NCBI GenBank assembly: GCA_947488085.1
Contig: CANKYI010000001.1
Coordinates: 930,001 to 994,000 of the forward strand
Length of the DNA: 64,000 bases
Reading direction: 5' to 3'
Source: an uncultured Erythrobacter sp.
GTDB lineage: Bacteria; Pseudomonadota; Alphaproteobacteria; Sphingomonadales; Sphingomonadaceae
The notes below the pieces were generated by a model. The model was not told the DNA's origin. It saw only the letters and a program-made list of their open reading frames with translations, and ran no database searches. The number at the start of each line of letters is the position of its first letter. The stretch's first letter is position 1. Positions 37,107 through 39,893 of this stretch are shown in pieces. Made by a program: the position numbers and the translations under genes.

Positions 37107-37370
37107 AAAGCTGCAAAGCTCTCATGTTGCCTCACTGACGCGGTATCTCCGTCCCTTGCTCGGCCTGCGTAGGATAGCGGATACTCCCTTTCACCGGATA
37201 GTTTTGTCGTCTTTTTACAAACCTGACGATTATCTCTTGCGTGTAAGGGGAATTGAGGCCTACCGAACACCCTACAGGTTTCCATAAGGGGTTTGACGGG
37301 TAATCCTGTCCTCTTTGTGAAAATGTGTTGGGGGGAAAATTGAGACTATCTGAGGTTTGGCAGTGCGCCT
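37107..37370. other. Intergenic sequence without a credible gene
   Basis: This is the left part of the 434-base gap between pyrG and hsp20. It is richer in A and T than the flanking genes. Frames on both strands are short and look like chance. A TTGACG at 37292-37297 could be a -35 element, but the sequence 17 bases on (TTGTGA) is a poor -10. Confidence 0.4.
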
Positions 37371-37501
37371 GAATTGCGTTTGCAATCATGGCTTTGCTGT
37401 AAAAAGCTCGCGCTGGAATTGACCGTCTTCTGCGACCCGGACGGTCAGGGCTGGACGAGGCGACTCAATGTCGCGGGGGCAGGTCCGCAAGGACCGCCCC
37501 C
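37371..37501 (+). ncRNA. Run of hairpins, possible small RNA or structured 3' region
   Basis: Three clear stem-loops and one smaller one follow each other. ATTGC/GCAAT with a GTTT loop (37373-37386); TTGACCGTC/GACGGTCAG (37419-37448, one G-U pair) with a 12-base loop; GCGAC/GTCGC (37460-37474); and directly next to it an 11-pair stem (37475-37501) of GGGGGC, a bulged A and GGTCC, closed by a GCAA tetraloop. The last one is followed by ACTTTAAT, so it is at best a weak terminator on the plus strand. It also lies 26 bases after the hsp20 stop on the minus strand and may be that gene's 3' hairpin. Orientation and transcription are unproven. Confidence 0.4.
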
Positions 37502-37527
37502 ACTTTAATCATCCAATTTGCGTAAGC

Positions 37528-38019
37528 TTATGCCGCGTCTGCGGTGTCCGCATCGCTATCGCTTTCATCGGGAACCGCAGTCAAAGTGGCTGCGGTGGCA
37601 CCGTTTACCGCGATCTTTTTTGGCTTCATTGCCTCTGGCACTTCGCGCACCAGATCGATCACTAGCAGGCCATCGGCCAGCTGCGCATTATCGACCCGGA
37701 CATAATCGGCCAGCTCAAACCGGCGCTCAAACCCGCGATTGGCAATGCCAACATGCAGCAATTCCGAGCCGTCATCGCTGTCATCGCGCTTTGCGCCTTG
37801 CACCGTAAGCAAGTTCGCTTGCGCGGTGATTTCGATATCCTGAGTCCGGAAACCGGCCACAGCGAGGGTGATGCGGTAATTGTCCTCACCACTGCGTGCG
37901 ATGTTGAAAGGGGGATAATTATCGCCCGAATTCGCGCGTGCCTGTGTTTCAAGCATATCGAACAAACGGTCGAAACCGACGGTGCTGCGGCGATAGGGTG
38001 TAAAATCAAGTCGTGACAT
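37528..38019 (-). CDS. Small heat shock protein, Hsp20 family
   Basis: A 163-residue alpha-crystallin-type chaperone that holds unfolding proteins. The N-terminal FDRLFDMLE segment leads into the crystallin domain (about residues 35-130) with the GFERRFELADYV and the DGLLVIDLVREVP strands (the I-x-I/V-type end). The Asp/Ala-rich tail is unusual but short. The start is the ATG at 38019 (MSRLDFTPY), preceded by AGAGGA; the longer in-frame reading is the untranslated leader, which folds as a ROSE-type thermometer. Confidence 0.93.
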   Translation of the reverse strand: MSRLDFTPYRRSTVGFDRLFDMLETQARANSGDNYPPFNIARSGEDNYRITLAVAGFRTQDIEITAQANLLTVQGAKRDDSDDGSELLHVGIANRGFERRFELADYVRVDNAQLADGLLVIDLVREVPEAMKPKKIAVNGATAATLTAVPDESDSDADTADAA

Positions 38020-38085
38020 ATCTGCAAATCCTCTTTGCTTGAGCAATTTGATGTTCAGCGGGCCTGCCTCATGCAGCGCCCACAT
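38020..38085 (-). promoter_or_regulatory. ROSE-type RNA thermometer in the hsp20 leader
   Basis: Read on the minus strand, the leader ends with a hairpin (38025-38050) in which CAAATTGCT pairs with AGGATTTG, the latter including the ribosome-binding AGGA. The pairing UUGCU with AGGA, leaving one bulged G, is the hallmark of ROSE elements. A second hairpin (38060-38081, GGGC-CTGC pairs with GCAG-GCCC with a bulged G) lies just upstream, as in multi-hairpin ROSE leaders. ROSE elements block translation of small heat shock genes at normal temperature and melt on heating. Confidence 0.8.
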
Positions 38086-38136
38086 GTTTGCCACCGGATT
38101 GTTCCCCAAGACTGGCGGAACGCGGCGACAGACACT

Positions 38137-38164
38137 AGTTAAGTGTCACAAAATCACTTTCAAG
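38137..38164 (-). promoter_or_regulatory. Possible heat-shock (RpoH-type) promoter of hsp20
   Basis: On the minus strand CTTGAAA (38158-38164) matches the -35 of RpoH-type promoters; CTTAACT (38137-38143) is a poor -10 candidate 14 bases further. It would start a leader of roughly 110 bases, the right size for a ROSE element. The -10 match is weak. Confidence 0.35.
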
Positions 38165-38202
38165 GGCCATAAATTGCGCCTCAATGGGACTTCGAAACCG
38201 CT

Positions 38203-38460
38203 ATGCCGACGATCGATATTTATACCAAATTCACCTGCCCATTCTGTGTTCGGGCCAAACGTTTGCTCAGCCAGAAGGGTGTCGAGTTCAATGAATTCGA
38301 TATCTCTATGGGCGGACCCAAACGTCAAGAAATGCTCGCGCGGGCACCCGACGCACGCACAGTCCCGCAGATCTTTATCGGTGATACCCATGTTGGCGGC
38401 TCAGATGAACTGGCCGCGATGGAGGCATCCGGTGAACTCGACGCATTGTTGGCTGCGTAA
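38203..38460 (+). CDS. grxC: Glutaredoxin 3
   Basis: An 85-residue thioredoxin-fold protein with a dithiol CPFC active site near residue 12, the TVPQIFIG cis-Pro block and the GGSDELAAME glutathione-binding end. It reduces disulfides using glutathione in the cytoplasm. It is divergent from hsp20 and followed 9 bases later by a nitrilase-family amidase, a pairing frequent in alphaproteobacteria. Confidence 0.95.
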   Translation: MPTIDIYTKFTCPFCVRAKRLLSQKGVEFNEFDISMGGPKRQEMLARAPDARTVPQIFIGDTHVGGSDELAAMEASGELDALLAA

Positions 38461-39819: not shown

Positions 39820-39893
39820 GTTCCCGTAGCTCAGGTGGATAGAGCGTTGGATTCCTAATCCAAAGGCCACAGGTTCGAATCCTGTCGGGAACA
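39820..39893 (+). tRNA. tRNA-Arg (anticodon CCT)
   Basis: A 74-base cloverleaf. Acceptor arm GTTCCCG (39820-39826) pairs with CGGGAAC (39886-39892), with discriminator A at 39893. The anticodon stem TTGGA/TCCAA encloses the loop TTCCTAA, anticodon CCT at 39854-39856, reading AGG codons. The T arm has the standard GGTTCGAATCC core. CCA is not encoded. It lies 33 bases after the DUF1178 gene and is followed by a short T-run. Confidence 0.97.

Follow-up and report, generated by a model that had tools for sequence, protein, structure and literature searches.

A probable three-hairpin ROSE-like RNA thermometer in the leader of an Erythrobacter hsp20 gene

The hsp20 gene of an uncultured Erythrobacter sp. 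raises the question of whether its leader is an RNA thermometer of the ROSE type and, if so, what the rest of that leader is for. Thermometers of this type are well known from the leaders of small heat-shock genes; their founder is that of Bradyrhizobium japonicum hspA, and in Rfam they are represented by family RF00435. The stretch of DNA analyzed here (the window) is 64,000 nucleotides long and contains, at 37528–38019 on the minus strand, a gene for an IbpA-type small heat-shock protein of 163 amino acids. The protein matches PF00011 at 59.2 bits (E 4.5e-16), the one such match in the genome at E ≤ 0.001, and its best NCBIfam model is IbpA (145.1 bits, under the cut-off of 212). We propose, with a probability of about 0.92, that the leader of this gene is a three-hairpin ROSE-like RNA thermometer controlling hsp20 translation. 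In the mechanism that we envisage, transcription from a sigma-32-type promoter would yield a leader of about 110 nt; in the cool, the hairpin nearest the start codon (H3) would pair UUGCU with the ribosome-binding AGGA in an imperfect helix from which one G bulges, and so keep translation low; and on warming this weak helix would open and the chaperone would be made. The two upstream hairpins (H1 and H2) are conserved, stable structures carrying the bulged-G module of the thermosensor, and could act as a folding aid, in transcript stability or as a recognition site.

The minus-strand sequence of the leader is ...CAUCAAAUUGCUCAAGCAAAGAGGAUUUGCAGAUAUG. According to the initial annotation, CAAAUUGCUC pairs with GAGGAUUUG and masks the AGGA; both sequences are in place, and the fold is possible with one bulged G (G38044). 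In the resulting hairpin (H3, 38025–38050, minus strand), UUGCU (38046–38042) faces AGGA (38032–38029), which stands 9 nt ahead of the ATG (38019–38017). The lower stem is made of the pairs C38050-G38025, A38049-U38026, A38048-U38027, A38047-U38028, U38046-A38029 and U38045.G38030; beyond the bulged G38044 the stem continues with C38043-G38031, U38042-A38032 and C38041-G38033. This assignment is based on the sequence, on RNAalifold, on the comparative motif and on covariation in the lower stem. The UUGCU–AGGA pairing with a single bulged G had been singled out as the hallmark of ROSE, and RNAalifold, applied to 43 leaders with no structure supplied, gave exactly that bulge.

A second hairpin upstream of H3 had also been claimed, and it emerged from the same 43 leaders as H2 (38058–38083, minus strand; G38077 bulged in a CGC/GG context), which is further marked by covariation. 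Two features go beyond that earlier account: a third hairpin, H1 (38130–38089, minus strand), and a set of promoter-like sites (38164–38137). H1 consists of a predicted outer helix (38130–38123 with 38096–38089), taken from the minimum free energy (MFE) structure, and an inner stem-loop (38121–38101, with G38116 bulged, again in a CGC/GG context), taken from the RNAalifold structure of 34 leaders. Left to find its own structure, RNAalifold returned H2 and H3, the latter with its bulge, from both the 43-leader and the 34-leader sets, and the inner stem-loop of H1 from the 34 longer leaders, in which 3 of its 5 pairs show changes on both sides.

The promoter-like sites lie on the minus strand as well: a -35-like CTTGAAA (38158–38164), recognized by the conservation of CTTGA among leaders, and a -10-like CTTAACT (38137–38143), which agrees at 5 of 6 scored positions and is offset from the former by 21 nt; together they resemble a sigma-32-type promoter. 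Of 212 distinct leaders, 198 have CTTGA 40–240 nt upstream, compared with 11 when the opposite strand is read; 117 have a -10-like match (5/6 or better) at a workable spacing, compared with none on the opposite strand, and in 92 of those 117 the offset between the two sites is 21 nt. One RpoH-type sigma factor in the genome passes the cut-off, at 362 bits, and a further match of 138 bits stays below it; a sigma-70 scan of positions 37300–38300 detected no promoter-like site. To judge from these motifs, the transcript would start near 38131, so that all three hairpins would be contained in the leader. A start inside the H3 hairpin is unlikely, because the conserved sigma-32-like promoter predicts one about 110 nt before the ATG.

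The evidence for H3 comes from comparison among relatives. The leaders compared came from 80 loci in named records, 29 loci, 100 further places, 12 second-copy Hsp20 loci and the window, for a total of 221 (211 distinct), with L256 left out for want of an ATG. Of the 211 distinct leaders, 200 carry TYGCT..AGGA at a sensible spacing; among the named loci 79 of 80 could be anchored on it, the exception (L075) having GAGAA. The 11 leaders that lack the motif include at least five with GAGAA for GAGGA, two with ACACGCUC, two with CAAUGCC..AGGAUUG, one with GAGAC and one with a mis-chosen start codon. Positions 1–4 of the lower stem of H3, which played no part in the anchoring, are paired in 96, 92, 94 and 88% of the 200 anchored leaders versus 88, 81, 86 and 80% when shuffled (0/2000 shuffles at each position). 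When the leaders are reduced to 116 distinct arm pairs, the same positions are paired in 93, 87, 91 and 82% versus 81, 70, 78 and 70% (0/2000). With the arm pairs whose 3' arm starts with UUU set aside, 27 remain, and in these positions 1–3 still exceed the shuffles (0, 1 and 8 of 2000), and position 4 is not above them (607/2000); at positions 5 and 6 of the lower stem, too, pairing is not above that of the shuffles.

The two-hairpin structure was assessed in 100 leaders aligned to a covariance model, R1, that was built from 43 leaders of (Erythrobacter-like) relatives. In this alignment, which was fitted to the structure, includes many rows that trained R1 and draws on hand-chosen sources, 98.4% of cells are paired and 163 cells have changes on both sides, with 0/500 shuffles on any measure; sliding the partners lowers the pairing to 58.4% at best. 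Nearly all of the covariation here is in H2, where 7 of 7 model pairs have both-side changes. Of the H3 pairs, four are invariant, four vary on one side only and one varies on both, so the covariation of H3 rests on the wider set of leaders. The compensatory changes sought in the hsp20 leaders of relatives are thus present, in the lower stem of H3 and in H2, and together with a two-way linkage to known ROSE models they support the ROSE-type identity that was first assigned to this leader.

That linkage has to be set against a direct search that failed. Scanning with a ROSE covariance model had been suggested as a check, and RF00435 yielded no match in the window, in the leader alone at E up to 10 or in the genome, nothing reaching its cut-off of 45 bits; nor did RF02523 (ROSE_3) match anywhere in the genome at E ≤ 0.01. 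At a permissive E value the only Rfam match in the leader region was to a snoRNA (E 6.6), which falls inside the coding region and was taken as chance. It is in the relatives that the check succeeded: RF00435 falls exactly on the leader, sub-threshold (26.9–36.6 bits, cut-off 45), in 5 of 19 scanned relatives, and across the family it matches 51 of 148 genomes at E ≤ 0.1, 15 of them above the cut-off. In the class as a whole, 14 of 240 genomes have matches at E ≤ 0.01 (none above the cut-off).

R1 scores 72.1 bits on the hsp20 leader of the window and no more than 22.5 bits elsewhere in this genome. In the reverse comparison, it recovers 15 of 17 RF00435 loci in the same places, at E 0.023 or better (L266 and L274 are missed). 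At 13 of these 17 loci the gene was recognized by script as Hsp20; of the others, the start peptides at L267, L268 and L276 are Hsp20-like by eye and that at L274 is not. Across the order, R1 has matches at E ≤ 0.1 in 138 of 296 genomes, and the labels of 135 of these place them in the same genus or family.

Weaker R1 matches were examined as candidates for further elements. Four occur in the home genome (≤ 22.5 bits), and three of these (all except L115) were read by eye and rejected: the first has no TYGCT..AGGA core, and the other two lie in longer reading frames or have no start codon where one is needed. Among the matches listed for other genomes, 12 of 19 second places precede an Hsp20 gene and the other 7 (≤ 24.3 bits) do not. 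In a selection of 20 weaker places (19 from other genomes and one from this one), the 12 that stand before Hsp20 score 25.3–40.9 bits and the 8 that do not score 22.1–24.3 bits, and the idea of ROSE elements before genes other than hsp20 was rejected. In several relatives a second Hsp20 copy (L146–L156; proteins with MRTAFDLTPYRR) is likewise preceded by a ROSE-like leader, and in these leaders an alternative upstream reading frame runs across UUGCU..AGGA.

Since the score required by RF00435, which is a database threshold, was not reached, the leader is filed as ROSE-like and not as an RF00435 hit. It stands directly before a small heat-shock gene, in the 5' UTR; its 3'-proximal hairpin pairs U(U/C)GCU with the SD imperfectly, leaving one G bulged; it has three hairpins (H1, H2 and H3), where two to four are expected of a ROSE-like leader; and its structure is kept by compensatory change, as no shuffle matched it either for the lower-stem positions 1–4 or for the two-hairpin structure. 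The element itself is ordinary, and adds a well-supported branch (Erythrobacter and relatives) to a known kind. At its cut-off the Rfam ROSE model misses this genome and 133 of the 148 family genomes, not all of which need have an hsp20 gene. Our literature search found no account of ROSE thermometers in Sphingomonas or Novosphingobium or before alphaproteobacterial hsp20; a 2005 survey of alpha- and gamma-proteobacteria and the 2001 founding paper were outside that search, and an earlier prediction is possible.

Among known thermometers, the leader shares several features with the ROSE family of RF00435: it precedes a small heat-shock gene and follows a sigma-32-type promoter, it comprises more than one hairpin, and the 3'-proximal one combines a bulged G with imperfect pairing between U(U/C)GCU and the SD; in relatives, RF00435 scores it. 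The leader differs in falling below that model and in its bulged Gs, which the RF00435 consensus places in hairpins 1 and 3 and which are here found in H2 too. The core fits both the definition of ROSE in PMC3669281 and the UGC/GG core seen in the crystal structure that PMC11342760 describes. The short ROSE-like element of Pseudomonas ibpA (RF02523) has the same anti-SD core, and its hairpin I contains UGC/GG with an unpaired G; it has two hairpins instead of three, however, and RF02523 scores nowhere in this genome. In the 5' UTR of E. coli K-12 ibpA, whose product is 51% identical to the window Hsp20, the core recurs in hairpin III, and the MFE structure shows CGC/GG in hairpin I and UGU/AA, not YGC/GR, in hairpin II; hairpin III is itself missing from the MFE structure in one of four tested lengths. 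In ROSE-G and fourU elements, too, a weak terminal hairpin masks the SD (PMC12857270). Both identities were considered and rejected, since the anti-SD here is UUGCU with a single bulge, in contrast to the CUGCU and two opposed bulged Gs of ROSE-G and the four U facing the SD in fourU.

Of wider interest than the element is a module that recurs along the leader. In the consensus structures, every hairpin contains a single 5' G that bulges out between a Y-R pair and a C-G pair (YGC/GR): CGC/GG in H1, CGC or UGC/GG in H2 and UGC/GG in H3. Single-sequence folds show it in H2 of 124 of 201 leaders (83 of 130 clusters at <60% identity) versus 103 of 4020 dinucleotide shuffles (2.6%), and in H1 of 125 of 174 leaders (53 of 83 clusters) versus 57 of 3480 shuffles (1.6%); 88 of 174 leaders have it in both and 26 of 174 in neither (MFE). 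In real flanking DNA it appears in 49 of 2400 stretches of 49 nt (2.0%). The bulge column of H2 is G in 95 of the 95 aligned sequences that have a letter there, and that of H1 in 34 of 34, while the pair below the H2 bulge varies (CG 51, UG 37, UA 7, AU 3, other 2). It is likely that this module is under selection. The near-invariant bulged G offers a single-nucleotide handle on the role of H1 and H2.

The module also lies upstream of H3 at 10 of the 17 RF00435 loci (7 are without it), UGC/GG is found in hairpin I of 4 of 8 ROSE_3-type loci (and not in the other 4), and, as noted above, E. coli K-12 ibpA has it in hairpin I. The bulged base is already implicit in the Rfam consensus structures, which have an unpaired G in hairpin I of both RF00435 and RF02523 and none in the second hairpin of RF00435. 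The portions of the literature covered by our search contain no statement that the 5' hairpins share the core of the thermosensor; the founding papers lay outside it, and such a statement may be in print. According to PMC3669281, hairpin I of Pseudomonas does not open at temperatures up to 50 °C, a construct without it remains heat-responsive, and breaking its pairs leads to derepression; this behaviour speaks against a second thermosensor.

What, then, would the repeated module do? One alternative to heat sensing, tentative and suggested by analogy, is that the leader is mainly a feedback target: Hsp20 would bind its own 5' UTR and repress translation, besides or instead of any response to heat. 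Such self-repression has been shown for IbpA of gamma-proteobacteria; that of E. coli binds its own 5' UTR, for which it needs R93 together with an aromatic side chain at position 34 (Y34), and both residues are noted to be well conserved in alphaproteobacterial IbpAs (PMC10474464). R95 and Y35 of the window Hsp20 align with E. coli R93 and Y34, the contexts of both residues are kept in 80 of 80 relatives, and the repeated bulged-G module is a candidate binding unit. R93 may, however, be kept for chaperone reasons, and H3 has a full ROSE anti-SD, which feedback alone would not require.

Twenty divergent hsp20 genes were also inspected, and of the 18 proteins among them that were read by script, 17 have the R93 context. 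The remaining one, L295, is a divergent Hsp20 without arginine at the R93 position, and its leader (L250) has CUC/GG for YGC/GR, a single case. A tie between loss of R93 and loss of the bulged G was considered and rejected, as L222, L252 and L265 have R93 yet no YGC/GR in their MFE structures.

The thermometer and the feedback target could also be one and the same RNA. All three hairpins would then be built round the module as a repeated recognition unit, most likely for Hsp20/IbpA through R93 and Y34, and the leader would both sense heat, through H3, and mediate multivalent feedback by the chaperone, through H1, H2 and closed H3. We regard this combination as rather unlikely, and the identification of the module with an Hsp20 binding site as a guess; simpler roles for H1 and H2, in the order or assistance of folding or in transcript stability, are possible. 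If the recognition-unit reading is true, it would account for the conservation of 5' hairpins in the ROSE elements of both alpha- and gamma-proteobacteria, even though these hairpins have no need to melt.

A second alternative keeps heat sensing and changes its mechanics, from a zipper that melts to a switch that refolds. In the window, the AGGA can also be displayed in the loop of a rival hairpin, GCAAA-GAGGA-UUUGC (38034–38038 with 38024–38028), so that modelled energies would allow it to swap between the ROSE hairpin (closed) and this one (open), tipping near 40 °C. By nearest-neighbour calculation (ViennaRNA), the isolated ROSE hairpin has -7.2 kcal/mol at 25 °C, -4.4 at 37 °C, -3.2 at 42 °C and -2.5 at 45 °C, compared with -6.0, -4.3, -3.5 and -3.1 kcal/mol for the rival, and the closest relative (L002) has the same AGGA loop. 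Rival stems are no commoner than chance, however: those of at least 4 bp occur in 43 of 199 leaders versus 46 and 44 in two shuffles, and those of at least 5 bp in 5 of 199 versus 6 and 8. The ranking of the two hairpins may, moreover, be wrong, as the energy model takes no account of the non-canonical contacts that have been reported in ROSE elements. When 210 scorable leaders are folded in a 75-nt context, 161 favour the ROSE pairing at 25 °C; the mean free fraction of the AGGA is 0.15 at this temperature and 0.25 at 45 °C. For the window itself, the AGGA is predicted to be 38–94% free at 20 °C and 50–89% free at 45 °C (leader contexts of 100–120 nt), and no clean melting switch is therefore predicted for this species. 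We consider a refolding switch improbable, and retain the opening of the weak H3 helix as the preferred reading.

Folding energy alone does not show H3 beyond chance, but the comparative evidence does: the 50-nt stretch with H3 has a z-score of 0.19 (114 of 200 shuffles fold equally well), and the 131-nt leader one of -2.07 (2 of 200). The view that H3 arose by chance before a gene under sigma-32 control and regulates nothing itself would agree with a 50-nt stretch that folds no better than shuffles and with the lack of an RF00435 match in the window, but it is contradicted by the covariation and the family-wide conservation and by the linkage of the leader to Rfam ROSE both ways (RF00435 in relatives and R1 at RF00435 loci), and is very hard to believe.

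The surroundings of the locus include two further genes. A glutaredoxin 3 gene (38203–38460, plus strand; TIGR02181, 110 bits, cut-off 90) is divergent from hsp20, with its start codon about 40 nt from the -35-like site of hsp20, and the promoters of the two genes may overlap. A tRNA gene (39820–39893, plus strand; 72.8 bits) is the sole Rfam match at gathering level in the window.
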